64,000 nucleotides of DNA from Clostridia bacterium (GTDB lineage Bacteria; Bacillota; Clostridia; Oscillospirales; SIG627), in the NCBI GenBank assembly GCA_017517325.1, contig JAFWZW010000010.1, forward strand, positions 234,763-298,762, given 5' to 3'. A program made the translations under genes and the position numbers. The first letter of the stretch is position 1; the number at the start of each line of letters is the position of its first letter. Of this stretch, positions 12,741 through 64,000 are shown piece by piece. The notes beneath the pieces were generated by a model. That model did no database searches, had not been told where the DNA came from, and saw only the letters and a list, made by a program, of their open reading frames with translations.

Positions 12741-12758
12741 CTTTCTTTTTAAAGAAAG
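12741..12758. repeat. Short relative of the dispersed hairpin family, inside the sugar operon
   Basis: CTTTCTTT-TT-AAAGAAAG matches the core stem of the longer class A repeats in this window. It lies between the TIM-like and YjbQ genes. It may be a degraded or minimal copy. Confidence 0.5.
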
Positions 12759-12799
12759 TGCACACCAATATAAATTATTTTTTTCAGGAGGAACAAAAA

Positions 12800-13420
12800 A
12801 TGGAATTTAAGATGATCCAGAAAGAGATCCAGCTCCAGTCCAGAGGTTGGATCCCCACCTTCCATGACATCTCTACTGATGTTATGAAAATCGTTGAGGA
12901 GTCCGGCGTGAAGAACGGCACCGTTGCCATCGTTTCTCACCACACCACCTGCTCCGTTATGATCCAGGAATGCTCCCACGACTTCGATACCTTCGATCTG
13001 GAGTTCCTGCAGCACGACCTTCTCGATATTATGAGAAAGCTCATCCCCGATTACACCAACGAGGGTGACTACCGTCATCCCGGCCCCGTACACGCACAGT
13101 TCGGCCGCTACGTAGACGAGCCCGGCAACTTCACCTCTATGAATACCGACGGCCACCTCCGCTCCGTATTCTTCGGCAGAAGTGAGACCATGACCATTAA
13201 GGACGGCAAGCTGGATGGCGGCGAATTTGCTCACATCTACTTCATCGACTGGGATCACGTTCGCGCCCGTCCCCGTCAGTGCAACGTTACCATTATGGGT
13301 ACCACCGAAGAAATCACCAACCGTAAGTACAACGACGGTAAGGTTGTCAACACCCTCCGCAAGTTCCCCGCCGAAGAAAAGGCCTATATGGAACAGTACG
13401 ACGAGTGGAAGAAGAGATAA
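12800..13420 (+). CDS. YjbQ family protein (UPF0047), long form
   Basis: This 206-residue protein is longer than the usual YjbQ of about 140 residues. Family marks are SHHTTCSVMIQE, a Y-x-HPGPVHAQ segment corresponding to the metal-binding YxHxxEG-N-AH region, KLDGGEFAHIYFIDWD and RPRQCNVTIMG. The E-G-x-N of the classic motif is changed and extra residues around EPGNFTSMNTDGH are inserted, so it is a subfamily of its own. AGGAGG eight bases upstream fixes the start. Thiamine phosphate synthase activity has been reported for some YjbQ proteins, but this operon context points to sugar metabolism. Function unknown. Confidence 0.8.
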   Translation: MEFKMIQKEIQLQSRGWIPTFHDISTDVMKIVEESGVKNGTVAIVSHHTTCSVMIQECSHDFDTFDLEFLQHDLLDIMRKLIPDYTNEGDYRHPGPVHAQFGRYVDEPGNFTSMNTDGHLRSVFFGRSETMTIKDGKLDGGEFAHIYFIDWDHVRARPRQCNVTIMGTTEEITNRKYNDGKVVNTLRKFPAEEKAYMEQYDEWKKR

Positions 13421-13452
13421 TCTCATCTTTCAAGCAAAAAGAAGCATGAATT

Positions 13453-13486
13453 GCGAGACTTCTCATAAGGAAGTCTCGCAGTTTTA
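13453..13486 (+). terminator. Terminator of the kinase-SIS-TIM-YjbQ operon
   Basis: GCGAGACTTC pairs perfectly with GAAGTCTCGC around a seven-base loop, followed by AGTTTTATT. It comes 33 bases after the last stop and runs directly into the hairpin array. Confidence 0.75.
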
Positions 13487-13653
13487 TTCGCCTTGCGGCG
13501 AGTTTTATTGCTACGCAGTGATATTCGGCTTTCGCCGAGTGGTATTCGCTTCGCAAGTTTAATAGGCGAATAAAATAACACTATGACCGAAGGGAGTAAT
13601 ATACCTTTCACAAAGTGAAAATATCACTCTGTGCGTTATCACAGAATATCACT
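13482..13653. repeat. Tandem hairpin array with ATATT/AATAT(CAC) linkers
   Basis: Small hairpins follow one another: TCGCC-ttgc-GGCGA, TGC-tac-GCA, TCGGC-loop-GCCGA, a decayed TCGC-ttc-GCAA, TTTCAC-aaa-GTGAAA and TCTGTG-loop-CACAGA. In the left half they are joined by GTGATATT-like linkers and in the right half by ATATCAC, the complement. In addition TTTTATTCGCC (13482-13492) pairs perfectly with GGCGAATAAAA (13565-13575). The whole can fold into a branched structure. No coding capacity is apparent. It fills most of the 364-base gap between YjbQ and the AraC gene. Confidence 0.7.
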
Positions 13654-13695
13654 TTTTCTTTTCTGTTGCACTTGATAGTATAACTCACCAACCAA

Positions 13696-13728
13696 GAAAA
13701 ACCACGATGAAATTCATCGTGGTTTTTC
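13696..13728 (-). terminator. Terminator of the AraC-type regulator gene
   Basis: GAAAAACCACGATGAA and TTCATCGTGGTTTTTC form a near-perfect hairpin with T runs on both strands, about 57 bases after the regulator stop. It could work in both directions. Confidence 0.8.
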
Positions 13729-13784
13729 TCATCCTTATAAGAAGTAACCGTTTTCGTGCTTCATTTTTGCGCTTTTTTCTGTAT

Positions 13785-14624
13785 TTATCTATATTTTTTT
13801 CGATAATATAAAGGTCGCACACCCACCTTCTGATAAAACAGATTGGAAAAATAGTGCAGGTCGCCGTACCCAAGGGAAGCACCGATCTCCCCTACGGAGG
13901 TGCGGGTGTAGGCAAGAAGTGCCTTGGCCTTTGCGATCTTTTGCTCCAGCTGATAGGCGTAGGGCGTGGTGTGCATCTCCCGCCCAAAGGCTTTTTCACA
14001 GTAATCTGCGGAACGGAAGATCTGTGCCGCCAATTCCCCCGTGGAAACGCGGCGGTGCAGGTTGGCGTCCAAATAATGCTTCATGGCAAGGACCTCGGGG
14101 CTGAAGCTTGCCTCCTGCCGCCCTCGGGAGAGCCGCGCCAAAATCTCCGTAAAGATCCCCTGCAGAGCAGCCTGCTGATCTCCGTCGGGCCTATCACTTT
14201 TCAGAATGGGCGGGATCCTTTCAAAAACCTCCCGCACCCCCGCATCGGGGAAGAGCACCTGCCCACCGAGGCCGTAGGCCTGCACGAGGCTGGGGCAGAA
14301 AAAGCCCTTGATGTTCAGAAAGATCTTGGAAAAGGGCATCTGAGGATCCGAGCGGTAATCGTGGGCCTCCCCCACGGGGAGAAAGTATACCGTATCCGCC
14401 GTGACCCGATGGCGGATTCCCCCAAGGTTTACCCAGCCAGCCCCCTCCAGCACGTATTCGATCACCGATACCTTGGCAGAGCTTCGGCTCACGTGGTATT
14501 CAGGGTCGGGGTAAGTCACCCCCGCAAGGGAGATGGCAAGAGGAGCTTCCTCTCCTGCGTCGGGAAAGAATCTTAAAAATTCATTCAACTGATTTTCCTC
14601 ACTTTTTAACTGCATTTTCGCCAT
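13785..14624 (-). CDS. AraC-family transcriptional regulator
   Basis: This 279-residue protein has an N-terminal cupin-type sensing domain (VEYVLEGAGWVNLGG, then FLPVGEAHDY near residues 80-90) and a C-terminal double helix-turn-helix. The latter shows AAQIFRSADYCEKAFGREMHTTPYAY and IGASLGYGDLHYFSNLFYQKVG in the order expected for AraC proteins; the final RKKYR is typical. It is divergent from the GtaA-like gene, and their promoters overlap, so it very likely controls that gene. The start codon at 14624 lies only about 14 bases after the predicted transcription start and lacks a ribosome site; MQLKSEE at 14615 is an alternative start. Confidence 0.9.
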   Translation of the reverse strand: MAKMQLKSEENQLNEFLRFFPDAGEEAPLAISLAGVTYPDPEYHVSRSSAKVSVIEYVLEGAGWVNLGGIRHRVTADTVYFLPVGEAHDYRSDPQMPFSKIFLNIKGFFCPSLVQAYGLGGQVLFPDAGVREVFERIPPILKSDRPDGDQQAALQGIFTEILARLSRGRQEASFSPEVLAMKHYLDANLHRRVSTGELAAQIFRSADYCEKAFGREMHTTPYAYQLEQKIAKAKALLAYTRTSVGEIGASLGYGDLHYFSNLFYQKVGVRPLYYRKKYR

Positions 14625-14633
14625 ATATTAGGG

Positions 14634-14663
14634 TTGACAGAATGATTATAGTACAATTATAAT
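14634..14663 (+). promoter_or_regulatory. Promoter of the GtaA-like gene
   Basis: TTGACA (14634-14639), an 18-base spacer and TATAAT (14658-14663) precede the gene. It overlaps the opposing AraC-gene promoter. Confidence 0.8.
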
Positions 14664-14673
14664 CAAATTACAA
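14645..14673 (-). promoter_or_regulatory. Promoter of the AraC-type gene, face to face with the GtaA-like promoter
   Basis: On the complement TTGTAA (14673-14668), 17 bases and TATAAT (14650-14645). The two opposing -10 boxes form the arms of an inverted repeat, GATTATA-N7-TATAATC (14644-14664), so only one promoter can be occupied at a time. Confidence 0.7.
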
Positions 14674-14696
14674 GAAATAAATACAAGGAGAGTGCC

Positions 14697-16661
14697 ATGA
14701 AACAGAAGATCACGAGACTTCCCTCCCTTCCCCTGATCACCCACGATCCCTTCTTTTCCATCTGGGATCCCAACTTTACCCCCACCGGCGGCGAGACCCG
14801 CCATTGGTGCGGCTCTGAAAAGCGTATTCTTGCCGGTGTTGAGATTGACGGAAAGAAAATGCGTATTATGGGTACCGGCGGCAACCCCGCAATGCCCCGC
14901 GTAGCCGTGGATCTGACCCCCCTTTCCACCGCCTACCAATACGAGGCACTGGGCGTGAGACTGACTATGACCTTCACCTCTCCCCTTTTGCCCGACGATC
15001 CGGATATTCTCTCCACCCCCATCACCTACGTGCGCTTCAAGGTGGAGTTTATCGACGGCAACACCCATAAGGTGGCCATCAACTTCGCCTGCAACGAGAC
15101 CTTCGTTTACGCAGGGGAAAAGGGCCCCAAGTTCCGCTCCGACGATTTTGAGGACGATACCTTAAAATACGCCTATTTGGGGCAGATGAAGCAAAACCCC
15201 TTAAGCGGCTCCGGGGATCACCTGACCATCGACTGGGGCTATCTCTTCCTTGCCAGCGACGAGGGCGACGTGCGCAACAACCCCCAATCCATCGCCAACG
15301 CCCTGCGCTTTTACACCTGCCACGAAGAGCCCTTTACCGCCACCCTGATGGTAGGCTACGACGACGTTGCCTCCATTAACTACTACGGTGCCATGCTCCC
15401 CGCCTACTACGCAAGAAACGGAAAGACCATTATCGACGCCTTCCGTGAATTTCACACAAGAAGAGACGAGATCCTCTCCCGTTGCGACGCCTTTGACAAG
15501 GCCCTCCTGAAGGATGCAGAGGAGCTGGGCGGCGAGGATTACGCCCTCGTGATCTGCGCCTCCTACCGCCAGAGCGTAGCGGCACATAAGCTGGTTGCCG
15601 ACCGAAACGGCGATATTCTCTTTATCTCCAAGGAAAACGATTCCAACGGGTGCGCCGCCACCGTGGACGTCAGTTACCCCTCCGTACCCCTGTTCCTCCT
15701 TTATTGCCCCGAGCTGGTGCGCGGTATGCTTCGCCCCATTTTCAAATTCGCCCGTATGCCCGTCTGGACCCACGATTTTGCCCCTCACGATGCAGGCCGC
15801 TACCCCGTTCTCAACGGGCAGATCTACGGCGCACACCTGCGCAATAAGCACTACGCCCACGGGGATACCGTTGCCCCCTATTACCTCTACCCCGCTACCG
15901 TGGATGCCTTCAAGCTTTCCGGTCAGATGCCCGTGGAGGAATGCGGCAATATGATCCTGATGGTCTACAGCGTCTGCCTTGCGGACGGTAACTTCGCGAT
16001 GGCAAAGGAAAACTTGGATCTGCTCCGCAAGTGGAGCCGTTACCTCACCCAATACGGGGAAGACCCCGGTGAACAGCTTTGCACCGATGACTTTGCCGGC
16101 CACCTGAAGGGCAACGTAAACCTTTCCGCCAAGGCTATGATGGGCGTTGCCGCCTACAGTAAGATCCTGGATGCCCTTGGGGAAAAGGAAGAGGGCGCCG
16201 CTATGTGGAAAAAGGCACGGGAAATGGCAGAAAGCTGGCTGCGCCGCGCCGATATGGGCGGCTACACCGCTCTCACCTTCGAAAAAGCAGGTTGGAGCCA
16301 GAAGTACAATCTCGTATGGGATAAGCTCTTCGGCTGGAAGCTCCTGCCCGATTCCTTCTATGAATCCGAGCTTGCAAGCTACCTGCCCCATATCAACGAA
16401 TTTGGCCTCCCCTTGGATTCCAGAGCCGCTTACACCAAGTCCGACTGGACGATGTGGATCGCCGCTATGACCGAGGACAGAAGTGTGTTCGATGCACTCT
16501 GCGCTCCCATGGCCCACTATCTCCGTGAGCGCCGCAGCCCCGTTCCCTTCTCCGACTTTTACGATACGGTGGACGGCGTCTACGATCACTTCGTAGCACG
16601 CAGCGTTCAGGGCGGCACCTTTATGCCCCTGCTTGTTAAGAAATGGGCCGATAAAAGATAA
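14697..16661 (+). CDS. GtaA-like protein (DUF5127/DUF4965/DUF1793 architecture)
   Basis: This 654-residue protein matches the family named after fungal glutaminase A. It starts MKQKITRLPSLPLITHDPFFSIWDP, the family N-terminal signature, followed by a beta-rich domain. The middle and C-terminal part is an alpha/alpha toroid with YRQSVAAHKLV, FSKENDSNG-like FISKENDSNGCAATVDV, PWHDxG-like FAPHDAGRYPVLNG and YNLVWDKLFGWKLLP. There is no signal peptide, whereas fungal and Bacteroides members are often exported, so this one should act inside the cell. AAGGAG precedes the ATG. The fold resembles glycoside hydrolases; in bacteria the true activity is unclear. The AraC and sialidase-like neighbours favour a carbohydrate role. 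Confidence 0.85.
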   Translation: MKQKITRLPSLPLITHDPFFSIWDPNFTPTGGETRHWCGSEKRILAGVEIDGKKMRIMGTGGNPAMPRVAVDLTPLSTAYQYEALGVRLTMTFTSPLLPDDPDILSTPITYVRFKVEFIDGNTHKVAINFACNETFVYAGEKGPKFRSDDFEDDTLKYAYLGQMKQNPLSGSGDHLTIDWGYLFLASDEGDVRNNPQSIANALRFYTCHEEPFTATLMVGYDDVASINYYGAMLPAYYARNGKTIIDAFREFHTRRDEILSRCDAFDKALLKDAEELGGEDYALVICASYRQSVAAHKLVADRNGDILFISKENDSNGCAATVDVSYPSVPLFLLYCPELVRGMLRPIFKFARMPVWTHDFAPHDAGRYPVLNGQIYGAHLRNKHYAHGDTVAPYYLYPATVDAFKLSGQMPVEECGNMILMVYSVCLADGNFAMAKENLDLLRKWSRYLTQYGEDPGEQLCTDDFAGHLKGNVNLSAKAMMGVAAYSKILDALGEKEEGAAMWKKAREMAESWLRRADMGGYTALTFEKAGWSQKYNLVWDKLFGWKLLPDSFYESELASYLPHINEFGLPLDSRAAYTKSDWTMWIAAMTEDRSVFDALCAPMAHYLRERRSPVPFSDFYDTVDGVYDHFVARSVQGGTFMPLLVKKWADKR

Positions 16662-16664
16662 CAG

Positions 16665-16698
16665 AAAAAAGAAGTCTGCTTTGCAGACTTCTTTTTTC
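16665..16698. terminator. Bidirectional terminator between GtaA-like and sialidase-like genes
   Basis: GAAGTCTGC-ttt-GCAGACTTC is flanked by an A run on the left and a T run on the right. It therefore serves both convergent genes. Confidence 0.9.
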
Positions 16699-16708
16699 GT
16701 TTTTGTGA

Positions 16709-17770
16709 TTAAACCTCGTCCCGGCGCAGCTTTGAGATACCAAGGCGTTGCAGACAAAATTCCTCTTCGGGGAGACCGCCGCGGCAATACGCCACCAGAA
16801 TGGAATCGTCCTTGGTGAAGAACAGAGCGGGGTAGCAATAGCCCCGTTGAGGATCCGCCTCAATGGCAACGGGATCGGTCCAGCTTCTGCCGTCGTCCAC
16901 GCTCTTGCGGATCACAAGAGGGGTGCGGTTGGCGGTGGCACTGGTGCGGAAGTGCCCGTTGTAGCTGGGGGTGGGGTTGTATACCGCAAAGACCTCGCCG
17001 CCGTTTTCCACCATTTGCAGGGGTGAACCGGGGCTGGTAAAAACGGAAGGGGCAGGGTCGCTGAAGGTCACCGTATGATCCCTTGACCAAGCCTCGTACT
17101 GGAAGCCTGCAGTGGTGCGGGCCCAAAGGCGAACGGAGCCGTCCTTGTGCTCAATGATCCCCGGCTCCTGCAGACCTCTGCCCGATTTGTTGCGAGCGGT
17201 AATGGCAATGCGACAGGGGGTCTCCAGAACAAAGGTCTTGCCGTCATCTCGGGAGATGAGTACCGTGGAGGTACTGAAGGGGTCAGCCTTACCGTAGCCC
17301 CAATAGGCGTGCATGGCAACAGGTGCGTAAAGGTTTCCGTCGGAAAAGCGGTGGAGGCGGTCGTTATTCATCACGTAATAGGAAAGGGGTGCCTGCATCT
17401 CACAGCGCTCCGGCACGAAGGGAGCAACGCCGTTGGGAGAGATCGCTCTGCCGAAGGTAATGTTCCCCGCTGATTCCTTAATGAGAAAATAAAGGCCGAT
17501 GGCGCCGTCCTCCTGATAGATGGCGGAGGCGCTCATAATATTGGTCACCCCGAAGAAATCGGGCTGTACCAGAATCTCGGGCTCGGTCCAACTTTCGCCT
17601 TCGTCAAAGGAGCGGATCCCCGCAATACAGCAGTTGGCGTGATCCTGCCAGCTGTCACCGCTGTAGCGGCTATATGCAAAAAGGATGCTCTCATCCGGCA
17701 GGCGGATAAAGGAGCCCTCACTGTTTCTTGGATTTCCGGGAGAAGTGGGTCTGTCCCAAACAAGTCTCAT
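16709..17770 (-). CDS. Sialidase-like (BNR/Asp-box) protein, intracellular
   Basis: This 353-residue predicted six-bladed beta-propeller has three Asp boxes: SFDEGESW (residues 54-61), SRDDGKTF (173-180) and SVDDGRSW (near 300). An Arg-containing N-terminal segment NPRNSEGSFIRLPDGS-like NSEGSFIRLPDES and the PGIIEHKDGSVRLWARTT stretch fit the exo-alpha-sialidase superfamily. There is no signal peptide or anchor, so it would act on imported sugars or oligosaccharides. True sialidase activity is uncertain because the Arg triad and Tyr/Glu pair cannot be confirmed by eye. It converges on the GtaA-like gene. Confidence 0.8.
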   Translation of the reverse strand: MRLVWDRPTSPGNPRNSEGSFIRLPDESILFAYSRYSGDSWQDHANCCIAGIRSFDEGESWTEPEILVQPDFFGVTNIMSASAIYQEDGAIGLYFLIKESAGNITFGRAISPNGVAPFVPERCEMQAPLSYYVMNNDRLHRFSDGNLYAPVAMHAYWGYGKADPFSTSTVLISRDDGKTFVLETPCRIAITARNKSGRGLQEPGIIEHKDGSVRLWARTTAGFQYEAWSRDHTVTFSDPAPSVFTSPGSPLQMVENGGEVFAVYNPTPSYNGHFRTSATANRTPLVIRKSVDDGRSWTDPVAIEADPQRGYCYPALFFTKDDSILVAYCRGGLPEEEFCLQRLGISKLRRDEV

Positions 17771-17876
17771 ATTCTATACCTCCGAGCATTTTTCTTTTTT
17801 CGATTCTACCAAAACTCCAAGAGACTGTCAAGAAACAAGGGCGATTTTTTTGCATAATTCTCCCCTCACCTTATTC

Positions 17877-17905
17877 TTGACGAACAGCACAAGTTTTGCT
17901 ATGAT
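17877..17905 (+). promoter_or_regulatory. Promoter of the 17939 gene
   Basis: TTGACG (17877-17882), a 17-base spacer and TATGAT (17900-17905). The rest of the gap to the sialidase-like gene holds nothing else. Confidence 0.7.
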
Positions 17906-17938
17906 AGCATTAGATAACAGTATTGAAGGAGGATTCTT

Positions 17939-22288: not shown

Positions 22289-22303
22289 ATGCAAAATTTT
22301 CGG

Positions 22304-22362
22304 CTCCCTCGCCGGGCAGGCGTTCCTTCTTTGTAAAGAAGGAACCGAAGAAACTTTGCAAT
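22304..22362 (+). repeat. Dispersed hairpin repeat, class A copy 2
   Basis: It shows the family layout: CCTCGCCGGGC, a variable stem GTTCCTTCTTT-gt-AAAGAAGGAAC (22322-22345), then GAAACTTTGCA. Confidence 0.75.
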
Positions 22363-22576
22363 AGAGAAACACAAACCATATTCCTATATCACAGTTTATT
22401 TTTTGGCAGAACGGAAACGAGCGAACAACGGCAAAGCCGCCGCCAATCCCTTCCCCACAGGGGTTGGGGGTACGCCCTCGGTGGAGGAGGAGAATTTCTT
22501 CAGCACGGTAGCCGTCTCGCCAAAGCGGGCAATCGCTCGGGTTTTGGCAAACCGAATCAACTTTATAAAAAAGAAC
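22363..22576. other. Non-coding stretch between two repeats
   Basis: I see no supportable gene here. A short TTG-initiated reading (22403-22609) runs through the following terminator hairpin and lacks a ribosome site. It may be relic DNA belonging to the surrounding repeats. Confidence 0.4.
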
Positions 22577-22607
22577 GCTCTGTACTTATTCGGTACAGAG
22601 CATTTTT
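22577..22607. terminator. Terminator-like hairpin of the recurrent GCTCTGTAC type
   Basis: GCTCTGTAC pairs with GTACAGAGC and is followed by a T run. Nearly the same stem recurs at 45128 and 47207, each time next to a dispersed repeat. Confidence 0.65.
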
Positions 22608-22653: not shown

Positions 22654-22720
22654 CAGTGCAAAGTTTCTTTCCTCCTTTCTTTTCAAAGAAAGGAGGCCTA
22701 CGCGGCGAGCGTGCCCATCC
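22654..22720 (-). repeat. Dispersed hairpin repeat, class A copy 3 (reverse)
   Basis: It reads CAGTGCAAAGTTTCTTT, then CCTCCTTTCTTT-tc-AAAGAAAGGAGG (22671-22696) and a GC-rich end. Twelve perfect pairs form the stem. Confidence 0.75.
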
Positions 22721-27045: not shown

Positions 27046-27060
27046 AAATGATAAAGTATA

Positions 27061-27093
27061 AAAAACTCTGTACCCGTGGGTACAGAGTTTTTT
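27061..27093. terminator. Bidirectional terminator between CapA and LacI genes
   Basis: AAAAACTCTGTACCC-gtg-GGTACAGAGTTTTTT serves both convergent genes; the LacI stop codon lies at its right edge. Confidence 0.85.
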
Positions 27094-28069
27094 ATGTATC
27101 GATCTCAAAGGAGCGCCTGATCTGCAGCTTCGCAGGTACCACGATCTCCTTTTCAGCCTCTTCCCCGCCGATCCGCTTCAGGATCGCCTCTGCCGCCAGT
27201 CGGCAGCGCTCCTCGGGGGAGGAGGAGATGGAAGCCAGGGGCGGATCCAGATAGCGATCCTCCGCCAGATCGTCCTTCCCTAAAACGGCAACGTCCTCAG
27301 GCACGCGAAAGCCGTGATCCTTCAGGCTTCGAATGGCGCCGATGGCAACGTAATCGTAGGCGCAGAGCACCGCTCTCGGGGGCACACCCCGGGAAAGCAG
27401 GGTCTCCATTGCCTGAAAGCCTCCCTCTTCGAAACGCTTTTGGGAGCAGCAGAGGTATTTTTCCTCCACGGGGAGCCCCTCCTCCTCCATCAGACGGCAA
27501 AAGAGCGCCTCCTTATGAGCGGTTTGGTTTTCACTGATAAAGCCAACGGAAGAAACACCCTTTTCCTTCAGGTAACGGATGGCCTCCCGCATGACCTCGC
27601 GGCCGTTGGTATAAATGGAGGTGCATTCCCCGGGAGGATCTCCTCCGGTTGCCTTGCTCCCCCAAAGAAGCACCAACGGGATCTCGATGGATACCACAGG
27701 CCTTGAGATGGGATCAATGAGGATCAATCCGTCAACGTTGGAGTGCTTGGAGTAATAATCCATCAACTCCCGTTCCCGTTCCGGGCTGAAATTGGTGGTG
27801 GAAACGCAAAGCTCGCAGTGATCTAAATTCTGTTGGATCAGAGAGAGAAAACGGGTGTAATACATACTGGAAAATTCAGGCGCGATCACCCCGATCACAA
27901 GCTTTGGATATTTCACGTTGTAGAATTTTTTAAAGCAACCGTGCTCCTTCGCCACCCGAAAGACCAGCTGGCGGGTCTCCTCGTTTACCTCGGGACTGCC
28001 GGAAAAGGCCTTTGACGCCGTGGAAACGGAAACGTGTGCTTCCCTTGCGATCTTGGAAAGGGTCATCAT
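27092..28069 (-). CDS. LacI-family transcriptional regulator
   Basis: This 325-residue protein opens with the LacI helix-turn-helix and hinge (MTLSKIAREAHVSVSTASKAFSG), followed by a periplasmic-binding-protein-like sensor domain (VIGVIAPEFSSMYYTRFLSLI, then NVDGLILIDP, GVSSVGFISEN and PRAVLCAYDYVAIGAIRSL). It is divergent from the fucose-isomerase-like gene. A 19-base palindrome (28141-28159) lies midway between the two promoters, so this protein probably represses both its own gene and the two-gene operon. The effector is likely a sugar or sugar phosphate of that pathway. Confidence 0.93.
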   Translation of the reverse strand: MMTLSKIAREAHVSVSTASKAFSGSPEVNEETRQLVFRVAKEHGCFKKFYNVKYPKLVIGVIAPEFSSMYYTRFLSLIQQNLDHCELCVSTTNFSPERERELMDYYSKHSNVDGLILIDPISRPVVSIEIPLVLLWGSKATGGDPPGECTSIYTNGREVMREAIRYLKEKGVSSVGFISENQTAHKEALFCRLMEEEGLPVEEKYLCCSQKRFEEGGFQAMETLLSRGVPPRAVLCAYDYVAIGAIRSLKDHGFRVPEDVAVLGKDDLAEDRYLDPPLASISSSPEERCRLAAEAILKRIGGEEAEKEIVVPAKLQIRRSFEIDT

Positions 28070-32750: not shown

Positions 32751-32800
32751 GCCTGCTATCAAGGAAAGCGCCACCGTCTATCTTGCCGCCAAGCAGACAC

Positions 32801-32922
32801 GCTCGCCGCGTAGGCCTCCTTTCTTTGAAAAGAAAGTGACACCTTGGAACCGGGACTCTGCCATCGCCATTCGGCTCGGCACAGTCAGGTTCCGGCGGTC
32901 GAAAAGAAACTTTGCACTGAAA
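32801..32922 (+). repeat. Dispersed hairpin repeat, class A copy 4 (long, without the 44-base insert)
   Basis: It begins CTCGCCGCG, has CTTTCTTT-ga-AAAGAAAG, then a second long inverted repeat from GGAACC (32845-32850) to GGTTCC (32889-32894), and ends AAACTTTGCACTG. It matches the 44951 and 63884 copies up to GTCGAAAAG, then lacks 44 bases found there. Confidence 0.8.
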
Positions 32923-32974: not shown

Positions 32975-33053
32975 CCATTACGAAAGTTTTTGGAGGTTTG
33001 GAACCTTTTTTCAAAAAGGTTCCAAGCAGGGTGCGGAGCGGCAGCCCTGCGCG
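32975..33053 (-). repeat. Dispersed hairpin repeat, class B copy 1
   Basis: CATTACGAAAGTTTTTGG leads into TTGGAACCTTTTT-tc-AAAAAGGTTCCAA (32998-33025), then GCAGGG...CCCTGC. Together with copy A4 it fills the 468-base gap. Confidence 0.8.
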
Positions 33054-42182: not shown

Positions 42183-42254
42183 TGCAGGGCTGCCGCCCCG
42201 CACCCCTGCCAAGCCCTTTTTGAAAAAAGGGCTTGACCCCAAAAACTTTCGCAA
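42183..42254 (+). repeat. Dispersed hairpin repeat, class B copy 2
   Basis: GCAGGGCTGCCGCCCCGC is followed by the stem AAGCCCTTTTT-ga-AAAAAGGGCTT (42211-42234), then CAAAAACTTTCGCAA. Confidence 0.8.
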
Positions 42255-42271: not shown

Positions 42272-42303
42272 TCATCCATCACAGCCAATACTGTGGTGGA
42301 TGA
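42272..42303. repeat. CATCCATCACAG hairpin attached to the class B repeat
   Basis: TCATCCATCACAG pairs with CTGTGGTGGATGA, with one T-G wobble. The same module sits at 58166-58195 beside repeat B5, with a wobble at a different pair. Confidence 0.7.
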
Positions 42304-42370
42304 TTCTGTCTGCGCTGTATGAACGTATTCTTTATTCTTATTTTGCAAACGTTCCCAAGAAACGAAAAAG

Positions 42371-42405
42371 ATACTCTGCACTTGGTACAGAGTATCTCTT
42401 TTTTA
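42371..42405. terminator. Terminator between repeats B2 and B3
   Basis: GATACTCTG pairs with CAGAGTATC and is flanked by A and T runs. It can stop transcription from either side of the 330-base gap. Confidence 0.65.
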
Positions 42406-42418
42406 TTTTTATAAAACC

Positions 42419-42482
42419 CCATTACAAAGTTTTTGGGGTTTCAGACCCTTTTTGAAAAAAGGGTCTGAGCCTGCCCGGCCGG
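42419..42482 (-). repeat. Dispersed hairpin repeat, class B copy 3
   Basis: CATTACAAAGTTTTTGGGG leads to CAGACCCTTTTT-ga-AAAAAGGGTCTG (42442-42467), then GCCCGGCCGGGG. It abuts the stop of the acyl-CoA ligase gene. Confidence 0.8.
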
Positions 42483-42487
42483 GGCAA

Positions 42488-44910: not shown

Positions 44911-45083
44911 CCCGCCCTCGCCGGGCATGCCTCCTTTCTTTGAAAAGAAAGTGACACCTTGGAACCGTGACTCTGCCATCGCCATTCGGCTCGGCACAGT
45001 CGGGTTCCGGCGGTCGAAAAGACATCGAAAATGACACCCGTGTCATTTTCTCGCTTTCCGCAAAGAAACTTCGCACTGAAAAT
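44911..45083 (+). repeat. Dispersed hairpin repeat, class A copy 5 (long, with 44-base insert)
   Basis: It begins two bases after the DUF1836 stop with GCCCTCGCCGGGC and CTTTCTTT-ga-AAAGAAAG, then a long inverted repeat GGAACC...GGTTCC. A 24-base palindrome GAAAATGACAC-cc-GTGTCATTTTC follows inside the insert. It ends AAACTTCGCACTG. Positions 44951-45067 are identical to 63884-64000. Confidence 0.88.
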
Positions 45084-45122: not shown

Positions 45123-45165
45123 AAAAAATGCTCTGTACCTTGTTCGTACAGAGCATTCTTTTTTA
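45123..45165. terminator. Terminator-like hairpin of the GCTCTGTAC type
   Basis: ATGCTCTGTAC pairs with GTACAGAGCAT and is flanked by A and T runs. It is the same stem as at 22577. Confidence 0.75.
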
Positions 45166-45170: not shown

Positions 45171-45246
45171 TTACGAAAGTTTTTGGAGGTTTGGAGCCTT
45201 TTTTCAAAAAGGTTCCAAGCAGGTCGTAGGGCGGCAGCCCTGCATA
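45171..45246 (-). repeat. Dispersed hairpin repeat, class B copy 4
   Basis: CATTACGAAAGTTTTTGGAGG leads to TTGGAGCCTTTTT-tc-AAAAAGGTTCCAA, with one G-T wobble, then GCAGG...CCCTGC. It reaches the stop of the glycosidase gene. Confidence 0.8.
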
Positions 45247-46992: not shown

Positions 46993-46999
46993 CCCTATG

Positions 47000-47058
47000 C
47001 CTCGCCGGGCAGGCGTTCCTTCTTTTGAAAAAGAAGGAACCAAGAAAACTTTATGCCA
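47000..47058 (+). repeat. Dispersed hairpin repeat, class A copy 6
   Basis: CCTCGCCGGGC is followed by GTTCCTTCTTTT-ga-AAAAGAAGGAAC (47015-47040), then AAAACTTTATGCC. The next 150 bases are AT-rich and show no gene. Confidence 0.75.
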
Positions 47059-47206
47059 AAAAACAGAAATACGATCATATATCGCAAATTAAGTTTAGTT
47101 AATACAACAAAAAACAAATAAAAGTAAAGCCTCAGCCGATCTGCCGCCCCAGCCGCTGAAGCGGCCGCAGAGTCGGGTACTTATAAAACAATCAAGCTAT
47201 AAAGAA

Positions 47207-47240
47207 AATGCTCCGTACCTTGTTCGTACAGAGCATTTTT
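47207..47240. terminator. Terminator-like hairpin of the GCTCTGTAC type, one mismatch
   Basis: AATGCTCcGTAC pairs with GTACaGAGCATT, followed by a T run. Confidence 0.6.
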
Positions 47241-58066: not shown

Positions 58067-58083
58067 GCCTCTCGGGGCCTCCC

Positions 58084-58146
58084 GCCACGCACCTTGCTTG
58101 GGAACTTTTTGAAAAAAGTTCCCAAACCCTCAAAAACTTTCGCAAA
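58084..58146 (+). repeat. Dispersed hairpin repeat, class B copy 5
   Basis: TTGGGAACTTTTT-ga-AAAAAGTTCCCAA (58098-58125) is followed by CAAAAACTTTCGCAA. The stem sequence differs from the other copies but still pairs perfectly. Confidence 0.8.
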
Positions 58147-58165: not shown

Positions 58166-58202
58166 CATCCATCATAGCCAAAACTGTGATGGATGTTTTT
58201 TT
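58166..58202 (+). terminator. CATCCATCATAG hairpin with T run, probable terminator of the Gfo/Idh gene
   Basis: CATCCATCATAG-ccaaaa-CTGTGATGGATG is followed by a T run. It is homologous to the module at 42272. Confidence 0.7.
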
Positions 58203-58213: not shown

Positions 58214-58316
58214 CCCATTACGAAGTTTCTTCGGTTCCTTCTTTTCAAAGAAGGAACAAGTTTTTGGGGTTTCAGACCCTTTTTTCAAAAAGGGTCTGAG
58301 TCTGCCCGGCGAGGGC
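58214..58316 (-). repeat. Compound repeat: class A copy 7 joined to class B copy 6
   Basis: CATTACGAAGTTTCTTCG and GTTCCTTCTTT-tc-AAAGAAGGAAC (58234-58257) run straight into CAAGTTTTTGGGGTTT, CAGACCCTTTTT-tc-AAAAAGGGTCTG (58273-58298) and CTGCCCGGCGAGGGC. This shows that both classes share end sequences. Confidence 0.8.
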
Positions 58317-58330
58317 ATAGACATAAGCAC

Positions 58331-58366
58331 AAAAAAAGAAGCACGAAAGTTTCGTGCTTCTTTTTT
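58331..58366. terminator. Terminator of the 58378 lipoprotein gene
   Basis: GAAGCACGAAA-g-TTTCGTGCTTC is flanked by A and T runs, 12 bases from the stop. Confidence 0.85.
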
Positions 58367-58377
58367 GTAAGTCAAAC

Positions 58378-59172: not shown

Positions 59173-59217
59173 TTCATTTCTCCTTTTGGATTTTGTTATG
59201 CACGTGGCACAAAAAAC

Positions 59218-59245
59218 ATTATACATACTTTTTCCAAAAAATCAA
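59218..59245 (-). promoter_or_regulatory. Promoter of the 58378 lipoprotein gene
   Basis: On the complement TTGATT (59245-59240), a 16-base spacer and TATAAT (59223-59218). Confidence 0.6.
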
Positions 59246-59252
59246 TGGTTTA

Positions 59253-60851
59253 TCAAAAAACCTTTGGTTTTTTTTTGATTTTTTTGCCCAAGGCAAAGGC
59301 GCCCAAAAGCACCCAAACGGTACCCAGGGTACCAAGGAGCACCCAGGCCGACCCGGGCAGGGGTCCCAGCGCCACCTTTCCCGCCGTTCCGCTCTCGATC
59401 TGATCCAGCCGATACAGAGAGGTGGTCTCCTCAAAGAGCCGATCCAGATAGGCCCCGTCCACCTTTTCCTTGCGGCGAACGGATTTGGTCACGCTCTCCA
59501 CCAGATGCCCCGCCGCATCACGCAGGGAGGCAGAGCCGTTGAATACGCTGGTAACGAAGGTGTGATCGGTGTTGTCAAGCAGAAGCCTTGTGGCCTTCAG
59601 CTTCACGTCGTAGTGCAGATCGGAATCCTCCCCCGCACGGGCAAGGTAATCCTGATATTCCGCCGTCTCCCGCGCCTTTGAGGTAACGGGCACGTACCCC
59701 TCCGTTTGGGAATAGGCGATCTGAACCTCATCGGTGAGAAGAAACTGGGTAAAGAGCCAGGAAGCCAGCACCTCCTGAGGATCCTCCTTGTTGAAAACGC
59801 AAACGGAAGGCCCTTGAGAGATCATCGTGGGGTTTTGGGGATCCTTTTGAGGAATCAGCATTACCTCCGTATCGAACTTCACCAGCTTTTCCTCGGCAAT
59901 ATCCACAAGGGGCGCTTCAGACCCCATCCAGGTAGCGCCCGCGGTGGAGTCAATGGCAAAAATGCACTGCCCTGCGTTCAGGAAGTTTGCGGGGTAGCCG
60001 GAAATTTTAAAGGTAGAAAAGGCACCTTTTTTGGTGTATTTGGCAACGGTCTCCAAAAAGGCACGAGTTTCCTCGTGAAACAGATCAATTTCTCCACGGT
60101 CGTTGGAGTAACCCGCTCCCTCCTGACGGAGCACGGTGATCATCATATTATCGGTAGACTTATAGATAAAGGGGAGAAGCACCTTCTGCCCGTTCACCTT
60201 GTAAAGCCCCGCCGCATCCTTTTCGACAGCCTTGGCGGAAACCTCCCAGATGAAATCCCAGGTGAGCACCTCAGGCAGAGTGAAGCCCAGCTTTTCCACG
60301 AAGGTGCGGTTCACGTAGCAGGCCTCGGTGGAGCGCATAAAGGGCAGGGCGAAATGGGCGCCGTCCTGATAGCATTCCTCTAAAAACTTGGGGATCATCT
60401 CCTCCATCGTGGGAGAATCAAAGCGGAGCGCATCCCCCCCCAAGCCGTAGCGGGGATCCTCCATCAAAGCGTCCAGCGGCACCACGTTATCCTCACCCGT
60501 TTTATAGGTGGCAATGTGATCGGGGTAGGTGATACAAACGTTGGGGGTGGTATCCGTTGCAATGTTGGTGATCACGTCGTTATAGATCTTGCCGTAATCC
60601 GTATAGAGACGCAGGTTTACCTTGATATTGGGGTAAAGCGCCTGAAAATCCTCAATAGCCTTTTCGTAAATGGCAACCTGGGTGGAGTTGGTATCGTTCT
60701 TCGCCCAGAAGCTGATCTCGTATTCCCTCTCCTCGTCAAAGGCGGGAGGCATCTGAAATTCCACCCGCTCCACGGAGCCGTGACAGGCGGCAAGGCAGGG
60801 CAGGGTCAGAGCCAGGATCAAAAGAAGGCTCAAAAATCGTTTCACTCTCAT
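59253..60851 (-). CDS. ABC sugar-binding lipoprotein with an extra C-terminal membrane segment
   Basis: This 532-residue family 1 solute-binding protein has a type II signal peptide (LPCLAACHG, Cys near residue 23). The mature part shows the pattern ISFWAKNDTN, YEKAIEDFQALYPNIKVNL, LPFMRSTEACYVN and SVCVFNKEDP typical of UgpB-type proteins. Unusually it ends in a hydrophobic helix (about 501-521, WVLLGTLGTVWVLLGAFAL) with a basic tail KKIKKK, preceded by LPGSA. It is therefore anchored at both ends, or LPGSA acts as a sorting signal. It is the last gene of the importer operon and overlaps the upstream permease gene by four bases. Confidence 0.9.
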   Translation of the reverse strand: MRVKRFLSLLLILALTLPCLAACHGSVERVEFQMPPAFDEEREYEISFWAKNDTNSTQVAIYEKAIEDFQALYPNIKVNLRLYTDYGKIYNDVITNIATDTTPNVCITYPDHIATYKTGEDNVVPLDALMEDPRYGLGGDALRFDSPTMEEMIPKFLEECYQDGAHFALPFMRSTEACYVNRTFVEKLGFTLPEVLTWDFIWEVSAKAVEKDAAGLYKVNGQKVLLPFIYKSTDNMMITVLRQEGAGYSNDRGEIDLFHEETRAFLETVAKYTKKGAFSTFKISGYPANFLNAGQCIFAIDSTAGATWMGSEAPLVDIAEEKLVKFDTEVMLIPQKDPQNPTMISQGPSVCVFNKEDPQEVLASWLFTQFLLTDEVQIAYSQTEGYVPVTSKARETAEYQDYLARAGEDSDLHYDVKLKATRLLLDNTDHTFVTSVFNGSASLRDAAGHLVESVTKSVRRKEKVDGAYLDRLFEETTSLYRLDQIESGTAGKVALGPLPGSAWVLLGTLGTVWVLLGAFALGKKIKKKPKVF

Positions 60852-61711
60852 CCCTTGGTACCTCCTCTGGCCATACCCGCCATGATCTTCTTGCGGAACA
60901 CGATAAAGAGGATCACAAGGGGCACGCAGATGGCAACCACCGCCGCCATCATAGCGGGAATATTATCGCGCCCGAAGCCGTTTTCGCGGATCTCCTGAAT
61001 GCCCACGGAAACCAGAAAATAGTTATGATCGTCGGTAACGAGCCTTGGCCACACGTACGAGTTCCAGCATTCGATCACCTTTAAAATGGTAATGGTGATA
61101 ATGGTGGGGCGGCAAATGGGCACCATCACCCGCAAAAGGTATTTCAGATCCGAGGTACCGTCAACCTTGGCGGCAAAGTACAGCTCATCGGGGATCTGGG
61201 CAAAATTCTCCCGCAGGAGATAGATGTAAAACACGCTGGTGACCGAAGGGAGGATCAGCCCCGTAAAGGTATTGCGCAGGTCGAGATTCGTCACCGTAAC
61301 GAAGTTGGTAATGACCACCAGCTCCGAGGGGATCATCATCAGGGAAAGAAACAGAGTAAAGGCAAGGTTTTTCCCCTTGAACTGCAAGCGCGAGAAGGCG
61401 AAGGCGGCCAGCACCGTTACCACCAGCATCAGAAGGGTGGTGACCACCGTAAAGAGAATGGTATTGAAGAAATAATCCCAAAGGGGCACCCCGCGGAAGG
61501 CCTCTGCGTAATTTTCAAAGGTGGGGGAAAGGGTGTAAAGCTTGGGGATAAATTCGGAGTTGTAGGCGCCGTAGCTCTTTAAAGAGGTAAGCACCATCCA
61601 GTAAAAGGGAAAGAGCACCATCAGCCCCCAAAGGGAAAGGAGAAAATAGGTCAGCGCCGTGGTGCACCGCCGGGTAATGCGGCGGCGTTTTTCCTGCTGT
61701 TCAAAATTCAT
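60848..61711 (-). CDS. Carbohydrate ABC transporter permease, UgpE/MalG type
   Basis: This 287-residue permease has six membrane helices and the cytoplasmic EAA-loop in ELYFAAKVDGTSDLKYLLRVMVPICRP (near residues 187-215), which contacts the ATPase. The opening YFLLSLWGLMVLFPFYWMVLTSLKS and the final GTKG fit MalG/UgpE members. With the other permease it forms the channel. It begins 12 bases after the first permease and overlaps the binding-protein gene (ATGA). Confidence 0.95.
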   Translation of the reverse strand: MNFEQQEKRRRITRRCTTALTYFLLSLWGLMVLFPFYWMVLTSLKSYGAYNSEFIPKLYTLSPTFENYAEAFRGVPLWDYFFNTILFTVVTTLLMLVVTVLAAFAFSRLQFKGKNLAFTLFLSLMMIPSELVVITNFVTVTNLDLRNTFTGLILPSVTSVFYIYLLRENFAQIPDELYFAAKVDGTSDLKYLLRVMVPICRPTIITITILKVIECWNSYVWPRLVTDDHNYFLVSVGIQEIRENGFGRDNIPAMMAAVVAICVPLVILFIVFRKKIMAGMARGGTKG

Positions 61712-61723
61712 ACTGCACCTCCC

Positions 61724-62617
61724 TTACGAATAGTGCACGTGCTTGCGGCTCACCATCAGATTGATGCAGGTAATGGTCAAAACGATGGCAAACAGGATCA
61801 CGGCGGCGGCGGAAGCGTAGGAGGGGTAGCCACCTGCGTTGCCGTAGAGCATATCGTAAACGTAGCCCACGATGGTGTTCATCTCTGCCGCGTTCAGATC
61901 CGTTCCGAAGAGGGCCACCGCATCGCTGTACGCCTTGAAGGCGCCGATGAAGCCGGTGATGATGAGATAAAACAGCGTGGGTGAGATCATAGGAATGGTA
62001 ATGCGGGTAAAAATGCGGAATTTGCCGGTGCCGTCAACCCTTGCGGCGTTGTAATAGTTGCGGTTCACCGAGGCAAGGGCTCCCGTGAGCACCAGAATCT
62101 TAAAGGGGAGCACCACCCAAACGGTGTAAAAGCAAAGCACGAACATCTTCGCCCAATAGGGGCCGTCAATAAAATCCACGGGGGTCATTCCGAATACCCC
62201 CAAGATCAGATTCACAAGCCCGTCGGTATAGGCGGTCTTCTGAAAAAGGATCATAAATACCAGCCCTACTGCCAGAGTATTGGTTACGTAAGGCAGGAAG
62301 AAAACCGTCTGAAACAGCTCCTGAAGCTTGGGGATGGAGCTGATCCCAAGGCTGATGAGAAGAGCCAGAAGGGTGGAAACGGGAACGGTGATGATCACCA
62401 GAATAAAGGTGTTCTTCAGTGCCTGCAAAAAATAGGGGTCGCGCAGTACGTAGCCGTAATTGTAAAGCCCTACGCCAAAGGAGGTCTGGGAGGCGGAATT
62501 ATACCCTTCCTCCAGGGAATAAATGAAAACGTCAACCAGGGGGTAGACCATAAACGCTCCCAAAAAGAGAATGGCGGGGAGGAGATACAGCCAGGCCTTT
62601 TTATTGTTTTGCTCCAT
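61724..62617 (-). CDS. Carbohydrate ABC transporter permease, UgpA/MalF type
   Basis: This 297-residue permease has six helices. It starts MEQNNKKAWLYLLPAILFLGAFMVYPLVDVF, the usual UgpA N-terminus. The EAA loop is NYYNAARVDGTGKFRIFTRITIPMISP (near residues 190-215). A GGAGG about nine bases upstream supports this ATG; an earlier in-frame one overlaps the ATPase gene. It lies four bases after the ATPase stop, so the genes are tightly coupled. Confidence 0.95.
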   Translation of the reverse strand: MEQNNKKAWLYLLPAILFLGAFMVYPLVDVFIYSLEEGYNSASQTSFGVGLYNYGYVLRDPYFLQALKNTFILVIITVPVSTLLALLISLGISSIPKLQELFQTVFFLPYVTNTLAVGLVFMILFQKTAYTDGLVNLILGVFGMTPVDFIDGPYWAKMFVLCFYTVWVVLPFKILVLTGALASVNRNYYNAARVDGTGKFRIFTRITIPMISPTLFYLIITGFIGAFKAYSDAVALFGTDLNAAEMNTIVGYVYDMLYGNAGGYPSYASAAAVILFAIVLTITCINLMVSRKHVHYS

Positions 62618-62621
62618 TTCC

Positions 62622-63710
62622 TTATACCTCCGGGCGCAAACGGGCGCCGTTCTCATCGAAGATCAGAGTCTTATGGGGCTTCAAATCAAAGCGGAGCTCA
62701 CCAAGCTCGCCCCCCGCTTCCTCTGCGGAAACGATGGCGCGGATGCGCTTCCGGGCGGCGGGGTTTTCGCAGATCAGGGTCACGTCACGACCCATCACCT
62801 CCACCTGTGTGAGGGTAACGGAAAGAGCGCCGTCTTTTGTGGGAACAAAGCCCTCGGGCCGAACGCCCACAGTGACCTTCCCATCTTTCAGGCCTTTGGC
62901 GGCAAGGGGAGAATCCGAGCCGATATAAAGGCGCTCGTTTTCGATCCTACCTTCAAAAAGATTGATGGGCGGGGTACCCAAAAAGCTTGCGACGAAAAGG
63001 TTTGCGGGGTCGTCGTAGACCTCTTGGGGCTTGCCCTGCTGCTGCAAAACGCCGTCACGCATGACCACGATCACGTCGGAAATGCTCATAGCCTCCTCCT
63101 GGTCGTGGGTCACGAATACCGTGGTGACCCCCGTGGCACGCTGAATGCGGCGGATCTCCTCACGGGTCTGGAGGCGCAGGCGGGCGTCCAAATTGGAAAG
63201 GGGCTCGTCCAAAAGCAGGATCCGCGGGGTCTTCACCAGGGCTCTGGCAATGGCAACTCTCTGCTGCTGACCGCCGGAAAGCTCCGAGGGCTTCCGATCC
63301 ATCAGGGTATCGATGAGCACCAGCTTTGCCACCTCCCTTGCCTTTTCCTCCATTTGGGCGCGGGTCATTTTATCCTTGCCCTTTAGGTTCTGCAAGGGGA
63401 AGATAATATTCTGCATCACGTTCAGGTGGGGGTAGAGAGCGTAATTCTGGAATACCATTCCCACGCCCCGTGCTTCGGGAGGTAGAGCGGTAACGTCGTC
63501 CTCCCCAAAGAGGATCCTGCCGCCCGTGGGGCGAAGCAGTCCGCAAAGAAGGTTGAGAGCGGTGGATTTTCCGCAACCGGAGGGGCCCAGAAGCCCTACC
63601 AGCGTTCCATCAGGAATTTCCAGATCAAAGTTGTTCACAGCCGTCACGTCAGACGCGCCCTTGCCCCTGCCGGGGAATACTTTCGTAAGAGATTCAAGCG
63701 TAACCTTCAT
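62622..63710 (-). CDS. Carbohydrate ABC transporter ATPase, UgpC/MsmX type
   Basis: This 362-residue ATPase energises sugar uptake. It has Walker A GPSGCGKST (near residues 42-50), the Q-loop in MVFQNYALYPHLNV, signature LSGGQQQR (near 142), Walker B ILLLDEP (near 162) and the H-loop in FVTHDQEEAM. The C-terminal 120 residues form the OB-type TOBE regulatory domain (VGVRPEGF). The start MKVTLESLTKVF matches relatives. It is the first gene of the operon; having the ATPase with its permeases is unusual in Firmicutes, which often share one MsmX. Confidence 0.96.
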   Translation of the reverse strand: MKVTLESLTKVFPGRGKGASDVTAVNNFDLEIPDGTLVGLLGPSGCGKSTALNLLCGLLRPTGGRILFGEDDVTALPPEARGVGMVFQNYALYPHLNVMQNIIFPLQNLKGKDKMTRAQMEEKAREVAKLVLIDTLMDRKPSELSGGQQQRVAIARALVKTPRILLLDEPLSNLDARLRLQTREEIRRIQRATGVTTVFVTHDQEEAMSISDVIVVMRDGVLQQQGKPQEVYDDPANLFVASFLGTPPINLFEGRIENERLYIGSDSPLAAKGLKDGKVTVGVRPEGFVPTKDGALSVTLTQVEVMGRDVTLICENPAARKRIRAIVSAEEAGGELGELRFDLKPHKTLIFDENGARLRPEV

Positions 63711-63775
63711 GGCAATTCTTCCCTTTTTTCTTGGTTTTCTTACCGCTTTTTCCACAAAGCGGCATCTTGCCTTAT

Positions 63776-63804
63776 ATTATACTGCCTTTTTTCCGCTATT
63801 TCAA
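63776..63804 (-). promoter_or_regulatory. Promoter of the sugar importer operon
   Basis: On the complement TTGAAA (63804-63799), a 17-base spacer and TATAAT (63781-63776). Confidence 0.8.
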
Positions 63805-63842
63805 TAAATTTCGCAAATTTACCTGCGCCGTATCCAACCAAA

Positions 63843-64000
63843 ATGCCCTCGCCGGGCTCGCCTTACTTCTTTTGAAAAAGAAGGTGACACCTTGGAACCG
63901 TGACTCTGCCATCGCCATTCGGCTCGGCACAGTCGGGTTCCGGCGGTCGAAAAGACATCGAAAATGACACCCGTGTCATTTTCTCGCTTTCCGCAAAGAA
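63843..64000 (+). repeat. Dispersed hairpin repeat, class A copy 8 (long, cut by the window end)
   Basis: GCCCTCGCCGGGC is followed by CTTCTTTT-ga-AAAAGAAG (63866-63883), then 117 bases identical to 44951-45067, including the 24-base palindrome. Confidence 0.88.

Follow-up and report, generated by a model that had tools for sequence, protein, structure and literature searches.

Miniature inverted-repeat transposable elements (MITEs) are characterized by terminal inverted repeats and dispersed copies. According to passages of Holder et al. 2015 (PMC4666352), bacterial genomes also contain intrastrand triplex repeats, PIT elements and TM_ECO, which are able to fold one strand into a hairpin and a third strand. 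TM_ECO has there a single G/C-rich homopurine pattern, which is almost invariant (CCCTCNCCC-GGGNGAGGG-GGGNGAGGG). Repetitive extragenic palindromic (REP) sequences and REPINs, in passages of Di Nocera 2013 (PMC3733652) and Bertels and Rainey 2011 (PMC3116915), are short dispersed palindromes with inverted doublets, located mainly in convergent or tandem gaps and proposed to spread non-autonomously; no third strand is described in these passages. Third strands that switch between purine tracts of two strands are seen in designed alternate-strand triplexes, which are synthetic oligonucleotides in the passages of PMC4807104 and PMC3660596. Here, a dispersed hairpin family is described from a Clostridia bacterium (GCA_017517325.1). 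The window is the whole stretch of 64,000 nucleotides that was analysed, the last 64 kb of contig C9 (JAFWZW010000010.1); the assembly is 1.74 Mb in 24 contigs and 80.8% complete. On balance, the sequences point to a dispersed non-coding DNA element of REPIN/MITE-like type, the arms of which would fold as intrastrand triplexes.

In the orientation adopted, a GC-rich end (for example GCCCTCGCCGGGC, CACGCTCGCCGCG, or GCAGGGCTGCCGCCCTGC) is followed in each arm by an AT-cored palindrome and then by a tail that closes with an A-run, C, and TTT. The stems are near-perfect palindromes, with sequences differing between copies. A covariance model, R1, was built from nine arms of the window and includes the tail consensus. 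At E <= 1, the source genome has 94 R1 matches. Of these, 24 short ones merely echo the palindromic core on the reverse strand and two are echoes of full length (C10:16730+ and C10:22541-); their removal leaves 68 arms. The window contains 12 of the matches (22302 to 63913) and one nested arm, 13 arms on both strands (Table 1). This agrees with a sequence-only reading of the window, which had proposed at least 13 copies of a common layout in both orientations, lying only between genes; indeed, 0 of the 68 matches are inside a called gene. The copy that it placed at 12741 is a doubtful relic with no R1 match, and the closing segment that it considered fixed varies together with the stem. In the source genome, the arms are often tail-to-tail pairs flanking a central inverted repeat or a terminator, and the usual unit is about 200–320 bp. 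Further copies come from GTDB contigs, in which a stem-only pattern found at least 114 stretches (80 with titles), although this is not an even survey. The arms at these loci are mostly single (63/101).

The two stem arms and the tail covary as three segments. Under the class-I rule, G^k A^m C^n T^t on the 5' side of the stem predicts C^k T^(m-1) C^n A^t in the tail. We oriented 212 copies: 62 of the 68 own arms, 81 of the 110 hairpins of relatives, and 69 of the 85 from the first 80 GTDB loci. Orientation was set by the A-run and CTT, not by the variable block. Copies without a usable hairpin or an unambiguous tail side were excluded; one of the 62 own arms, C16:801, was parsed on the stem of its neighbour. 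Class I includes 157 of the 212 copies, and 85 of these have exactly the predicted tail, compared with a mean of 8.9 when tails are shuffled among stems (standard deviation 2.8, maximum 21 in 5000). Exact tails are seen in 24 of 29 copies from the source genome, 30 of 59 from relatives, and 31 of 69 from GTDB, and in 65 of 135 distinct stem/tail combinations (6.5 shuffled). Alternative rules fit fewer of the 157 copies: only 1 for an inner G (a pure mirror), 3 for a T count of m, and 16 for m-2. The length of the third strand is exact in 115 of 141 copies (rho 0.84), and all four rank correlations between stem run and tail run are positive, 0.61–0.74 for 141 copies and 0.56–0.62 for 67 distinct combinations.

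The rule also holds for copies outside the set described above. The GTDB loci left after the first 80 (34 of 114) served as a held-out set. Among the oriented class-I copies there, 16 of 28 tails are exact, compared with 4.4 after shuffling (maximum 11 in 5000); 9 of the 37 held-out hairpins were unoriented. For new stems, the tails were predicted before the flanks were read, and 14 of 21 are exact, compared with 6.4 after shuffling (maximum 12 in 5000). Two of these 21 loci, both exact, had been seen earlier, and 12 of 19 are exact without them; 20 further hairpins were unorientable or lacked a perfect graded stem. Class II has pyrimidine stems, for which the rule is TxCTy to AxGAy. It is obeyed by 24 of 28 copies, and of these 24, 22 are from the source genome: T2CT3 to A2GA3 in 8/8, T2CT4 to A2GA4 in 9/11, and T3CT3 to A3GA3 in 7/9. 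The four misses are long versions, in which an insert takes the place of the adjacent tail. Of the 62 own copies, 50 have a match of at least 9 nt on the tail side and 0 have one on the opposite side; beside other perfect hairpins of the same stretches, such a match is seen in 0 of 44. Two copies compared over 198 bp have seven differences. Four of these are in the GC end, and the remaining three, one per segment, together make up a single predicted triad. Because both copies reach contig ends, a collapsed repeat may account for their identical right halves; the triad changes are in the part adjoining unique flanks.

Other explanations of the tail were examined and discarded. One own-genome arm (42411-42486) folds with Watson-Crick pairs between the tail and downstream GTAATGGGG, but among the copies listed that segment does not vary with the stem. 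Watson-Crick pairing of the tail with the stem arms has the wrong polarity. A pure mirror repeat suits class II, but, as seen above, almost no class-I copy. As a separate observation, the stems at two loci of one genome (L298 and L301 of G351) are far longer (e.g., GGGGGAGAGGAAAAC) and are accompanied by similar, longer tails (CCCCCTCTCTTTTC) that are inexact; these are possibly the longest third strands of the family.

The polarity of the tail can be read as that of a third strand. On the tail-first strand, T.A-T and G.G-C (or C+.G-C at an isolated G) are parallel to the inner purines, A.A-T and G.G-C are antiparallel to the outer purines of the other strand, and one base is dropped at the crossing. 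The parallel G.G-C triad and the switching of strands find support in passages of PMC4807104 and PMC3660596, and the basic triads, parallel TAT and CGC and antiparallel A(T)AT and GGC, are given in PMC4666352. The counts above (85/157 vs 8.9; 50/62 vs 0/44) mean that the neighbouring third segment obeys triad rules, as in the PIT/TM class. We propose that, when one strand becomes single during replication, transcription, or as a transfer intermediate, the arm can fold as a hairpin, with the neighbouring segment sitting in its major groove as a third strand. In this segment, located 5' of the hairpin, T^t G^n would be aligned in parallel with A^t G^n, the inner purines; A^(m-1) G^k would then cross to the other strand, antiparallel to G^k A^m, losing one base at the crossing. 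The tail-first strand is the likelier one to fold, because on the other strand the inner block sets C against G, a non-standard triad. The triplex might be the feature that an enzyme recognizes, or what makes the site useful, and the action would be as DNA. We tentatively propose, with somewhat less confidence than for the folding arms alone, that these are mobile hairpins spread across several phyla and that selection for an alternate-strand intramolecular DNA triplex preserves them, with three covarying segments, a strand switch, and a lost base.

The stems by themselves also covary, and here an explanation without selection on the fold has to be considered. The covariation score was taken from 50 gap-free copies of 34 nt (48 distinct), selected among the 85 that the GTDB scan had found. 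It is 0.368, compared with 0.109 +/- 0.012 after shuffling (not reached in any of 500 shuffles), and sliding the arms gives no more than 0.126. Pairing is seen in 92.6% of the stem cells vs 78.6%. Both sides change in 7 of 16 stem pairs, and the remaining nine are invariant because the search pattern fixed them. Two coarser measures do not rise above the shuffles (pairs changed on both sides, 7 vs 6.3; further pair types, 20 vs 22.7). Two positions per arm were free in the scan pattern; both are complementary in 75 of 85 copies and in 32 of 37 held-out ones, and pairing extends outward past the pattern. The joint change of the arms, claimed in the sequence-only reading, thus exceeds controls on the main measures and not on the coarser two. 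Its conclusion that the fold is under selection is supported, although stem covariation alone is explicable in another way. Quasi-palindrome correction by template switching turns imperfect palindromes into perfect ones and matches the arms without selection; the within-genome copies are related, and their tails could simply be inherited by subfamily. Template-switch repair copies antiparallel and therefore cannot write the tail, which is a parallel complement that keeps C as C and drops one base. The tail rule holds over distinct combinations, new stems, and held-out loci. Because the third segment covaries, template switching alone is disfavoured as the whole story, and we consider this explanation very unlikely.

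The position of the copies relative to genes is biased. With a codon-trained gene caller and gaps of at least 100 bp, in stretches partly chosen for holding matches, copies occupy most convergent gaps of the source genome (18/21), fewer of the tandem ones (15/36), and none of the divergent ones (0/24). In the cluster alone, the numbers are 14/16, 14/30, and 0/16, respectively, and in eight 20-kb stretches elsewhere 0/4, 0/35, and 0/16. The corresponding numbers for the first 80 GTDB loci, all of which were selected for a copy and called with codon tables per locus, are 20/39, 30/122, and 6/51. Counted by copies, with codon tables pooled per assembly, 53 GTDB copies with two called neighbours are 18 convergent, 33 tandem, and 2 divergent.

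This location at gene ends, together with terminator-like hairpins in the middle of some units, would be expected of a transcribed 3'-end RNA element, in which a sense arm after a gene protects the transcript end or aids termination, and the tail contacts the stem in RNA. The orientation in tandem gaps is nevertheless even, 12 vs 13 copies in the source genome and 14 vs 19 elsewhere. Stem mismatches show no clear excess of the G.T type (12) over the A.C type (9), several of the 12 being from one Verrucomicrobia assembly. The sense-strand tail would also set C opposite G^n, which is a non-standard antiparallel triad. An RNA element is therefore quite improbable. The sequence-only reading had left the fold as either RNA or cruciform; the even orientation and the mismatches argue against RNA, and a plain cruciform is a poorer fit than single-stranded DNA folded with a third strand. 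Ordinary intrinsic terminators are also hairpins at gene ends, but the arms have a stem followed by a C/T block and an A-run instead of a T-run, and separate terminator-like hairpins with a T-run are seen beside some arms. With no T-run directly after the stem, the sequence itself refutes this candidate, and it is extremely improbable.

The copies are also concentrated in certain contigs. Five small contigs have 50 of the 68 own matches (C10 19, C16 15, C11 9, C4 5, and C20 2), and C9 has 12 in its last 42 kb and one weak match in 1–257 kb. C10 (34 kb), the densest contig, carries dnaA, dnaN, gyrB, and gyrA. GC skew is negative in 5 of 5 stretches of C9; the genes are mostly on the minus strand in 3 of the 5, and the plus-strand share is 0.41 and 0.74 in the others. 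As genes are usually biased to the leading strand, the right end of C9 facing the origin would fit. In relatives, the arms listed on the dnaA contig are at least two in G005 (of 32), at least one in G004 (of 9), and at least two in G013 (of 23). Apart from this, C16, which is rich in the element, encodes a 230-aa DnaA/Hda-like AAA protein (L043:3335-4024) that is below the cut-offs of both DnaA and Hda.

The near saturation of convergent gaps in the cluster (14/16 vs 0/4 in the eight control stretches) and the gene content of C10 might suggest a DNA barrier or insulator at gene ends, where a folded arm stalls RNA polymerase or absorbs torsion between converging genes, mainly near the origin, with spread being secondary. 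Converging transcription generates positive supercoils, which disfavour extrusion. Besides, same-genus relatives (G002 and G006) have no matches, and the avoidance of divergent gaps equally fits a tolerated selfish element. A barrier function is thus unlikely, if less so than an RNA element. The family most likely spreads as a non-autonomous element like REPINs or MITEs and would persist in gene-end gaps.

Dispersed copies of whole units are observed. Two copies on C8 are 97% identical over 208 bp, with unrelated flanks and inverted GC ends (GCACGCTCGCCGCTTG/CAAGCGGCGAGCGTGC); the comparison of inverted ends covers the C8 copies only. Copies on C9 and C11 are about 90% identical over 317 bp. 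Three copies at contig ends are 92–96% identical, with the same caution that contig ends may represent a collapsed repeat. In five cases in the source genome, a module of tail and hairpin is joined directly behind the ACTT of another arm; therefore, the hairpin and the third strand seem to travel together. Mobility would depend on an enzyme. The Y1 transposase PF01797 was tried as the mobilizer and rejected, as it does not track the arm number in relatives, with none in G013 despite 23 arm matches. The statement of the sequence-only reading that no transposase is near is consistent with the absence of PF01797 genome-wide, the Pfam check having covered 10 proteins of the window.

The distribution is patchy. 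R1 matches are present in 14 of 59 genomes searched, the source genome included, and within the genus G005 has 32 and, as mentioned, two relatives have none. Among 246 genomes of the class with at least 99% completeness, R1 detects only the source genome, which says little because only 19 candidates were scored per genome. For an orthologous-gap comparison, the best match of the own query protein outside the source genome is 44% identical. Titled matches of the stem-only pattern include Clostridia, Desulfovibrionaceae, Verrucomicrobia, Acidobacteriota, Aminicenantes, planctomycetes, and the isolate Acidocella facilis. Arms are also present in Acutalibacter sp. 1XD8-33. The predicted tail is read in Acidobacteriota (L145, L177, and L196), Aminicenantes (L205), Verrucomicrobia (L209), Desulfovibrionaceae (L158), and Acidocella (L146 and L199), and the same arm and tail are also found in Clostridia by this search. 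Four planctomycete loci have no exact fit to the tail rule. Mis-binned contigs could inflate the list of phyla, but not the Acidocella isolate. Rfam at the gathering score gives no match in the window and six sub-threshold matches in seven loci of relatives. Phage and plasmid collections searched with one unit gave no match. In viral contigs, three stem patterns gave 4, 0, and 2 matches; the flanks of the four were read, and none obeys the tail rule.

Several points weigh against mobile hairpins kept for a triplex. Target duplication is not seen in three sets of aligned copies, and PF01797 is absent from the source genome (80.8% complete). The copies of relatives were collected with R1, whose model contains the tail consensus. 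In the source genome alone, two of the four run correlations are significant (26 copies), and none of the four over eight distinct combinations. The exact rule is missed by 72 of the 157 class-I copies, many by one block-edge position; a typical miss is CCCC-TT where the rule gives CCCCC-T. A stem yields only about 9–13 triads, and protonated C or mixed T/G parallel steps are required in some cases. For TM_ECO, a related bacterial motif, in vivo footprinting does not support a stable triplex, according to the part of PMC4666352 on this motif. The weaker avoidance of divergent gaps in GTDB loci and the caution on contig ends weigh slightly, and the held-out test supports the rule.

The comparison with described systems is as follows. 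PIT/TM_ECO repeats share the ability to fold one strand into a hairpin and a third strand. Unlike TM_ECO, as presented in passages of PMC4666352, the stems here are many, the purines of class I switch strands, and the third strand tracks the changes of the stem, the switch included. None of the 62 listed stems has the homopurine pattern of TM_ECO; class-I arms turn from purine to pyrimidine. As in REPINs, inverted doublets are seen in non-divergent gaps of the source genome, the GTDB arms being mostly single. In contrast to REP/REPIN in the cited passages (PMC3733652, PMC3116915), there is no constant GTAG or CGTC tag, and the AT-cored stem has a third-strand tail; the foot bases listed, without counting, are ..GGCAGGC, ..CGTAGGC, ..CCTGC, and ..CTTGGGC across copies. 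The RAYT partner (Y1, PF01797) is likewise not found in the source genome at its 80.8% completeness. The length of about 200–320 bp, the inverted GC-rich ends of the C8 copies, and the near-identical dispersed copies are similar to MITEs as mentioned in passages of PMC3116915. The differences from MITEs are the lack of target duplication in the aligned sets and that no parent transposon was found in a search limited to PF01797. Designed alternate-strand triplexes, at least in the passages cited, are synthetic, whereas in the present case it is natural sequence variation that appears to preserve the arrangement. No description of the family or the tail rule was found among the matches listed from open-licence PMC text, subscription journals being outside this scope.

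Three of the window arms (stems at 32819, 44934, and 63866) are long versions, with an insert between the stem and the tail (Table 1). The inserts are about 67 nt and about 109 nt, and the third is ended by the contig; the last arm (family D9) is 99% identical to 44943-45067 over 125 nt. The insert is conserved (GTGACACCTTGGAACC...GGTTCCGGCGGTC), resembles a nested hairpin, and is also present at C11:35271 and C16:19419. Contigs C9, C10, and C11 end inside a long version or at most about 240 bases from it.

Table 1. Arms of the hairpin family and associated palindromes in the window. Tails are predicted third strands.
Feature	Position	Strand	Parts	Remarks
Arm	22302..22356	+	GC end 22302-22321; stem 22322-22345 (GTTCCTTCTTT); tail 22346-22356 (CGAAGAAACTT)	R1; pairs with 22661-22713
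Arm	22661..22713	-	tail 22661-22670 (AAAGAAACTT); stem 22671-22696 (CCTCCTTTCTTT); GC end 22697-22713	R1
Long-version arm	32798..32919	+	GC end; stem 32819-32836; insert; distal AAAGAAAC tail about 32904-32910	R1, E 0.02
Arm	32984..33051	-	tail 32984-32996 (CCTCCAAAAACTT); stem 32998-33025 (TTGGAACC); GC end 33026-33051	R1
Arm	42185..42248	+	GC end 42185-42208; stem about 42209-42236 (AAGCCC); tail 42237-42248 (CCCCAAAAACTT)	R1
Arm	42427..42486	-	tail 42427-42438 (CCCCAAAAACTT); stem 42441-42468 (CAGACCC); GC end 42469-42486	R1
Long-version arm	44917..45071	+	stem 44934-44951; insert about 109 nt; distal CAAAGAAACTT tail 45061-45071	R1, E 0.08
Arm	45177..45243	-	tail 45177-45189 (CCTCCAAAAACTT); stem 45191-45218; GC end 45219-45243	R1
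Single arm, tandem gap	46999..47051	+	GC end 46999-47014; stem 47015-47040 (GTTCCTTCTTTT); tail 47041-47051 (CAAGAAAACTT)	R1
Arm	58076..58139	+	GC end 58076-58097; stem 58098-58125 (TTGGGAAC); tail 58127-58139 (CCCTCAAAAACTT)	R1
Nested module without GC end	58223..58257	-	tail 58223-58233; stem 58234-58257	directly after ACTT of next arm
Arm	58258..58317	-	tail 58258-58269 (CCCCAAAAACTT); stem 58272-58299 (CAGACCC); GC end 58300-58317	R1
Long-version arm, ended by contig end	63847..64000	+	GC end; stem 63866-63883; insert	R1, E 0.1
Possible decayed arm	12727..12762	-	stem CTTTCTTT; tail AAAAGAAACC	palindrome; no R1 match; doubtful
Unit middle	42272..42397	.	central inverted repeat 42272-42303; terminator-like hairpin 42369-42397	palindromes

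Other repeats accompany the arms. A second repeated hairpin type, terminator-like and with related stems (CTCTGTAC/GTACAGAG), is located at 22574-22604, 27058-27095, 42369-42397, 45123-45161, and 47205-47239, in several cases in the middle of a unit. The central inverted repeat between paired arms has two sequence types, TTCATCCATCACAG or TTCATAGATCATAG, and is seen at 42272-42303, at 58166-58195, and in several units elsewhere in the source genome. At 2-6407 of the window, there are five tandem paralogous genes on the minus strand with a period of about 1.34 kb; one of them, the one tested (1065-2393), has no Pfam match.

The cellular role of intramolecular DNA triplexes is unsettled; the best-studied bacterial case is stable in vitro and shows no in vivo footprint, according to passages of PMC4666352. 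A third strand that tracks the stem through many changes is evolutionary evidence independent of catching the structure. Direct tests could draw on many natural copies of the family in which compensated variants are already present, such as the pair GGAACC/CCTCC and GAAACC/CTTCC. The family also defines a dispersed element, unmatched by Rfam here, where assemblies break (C9, C10, and C11). If the proposed reading is true, the family would be natural evidence that alternate-strand triplexes form and matter in cells.

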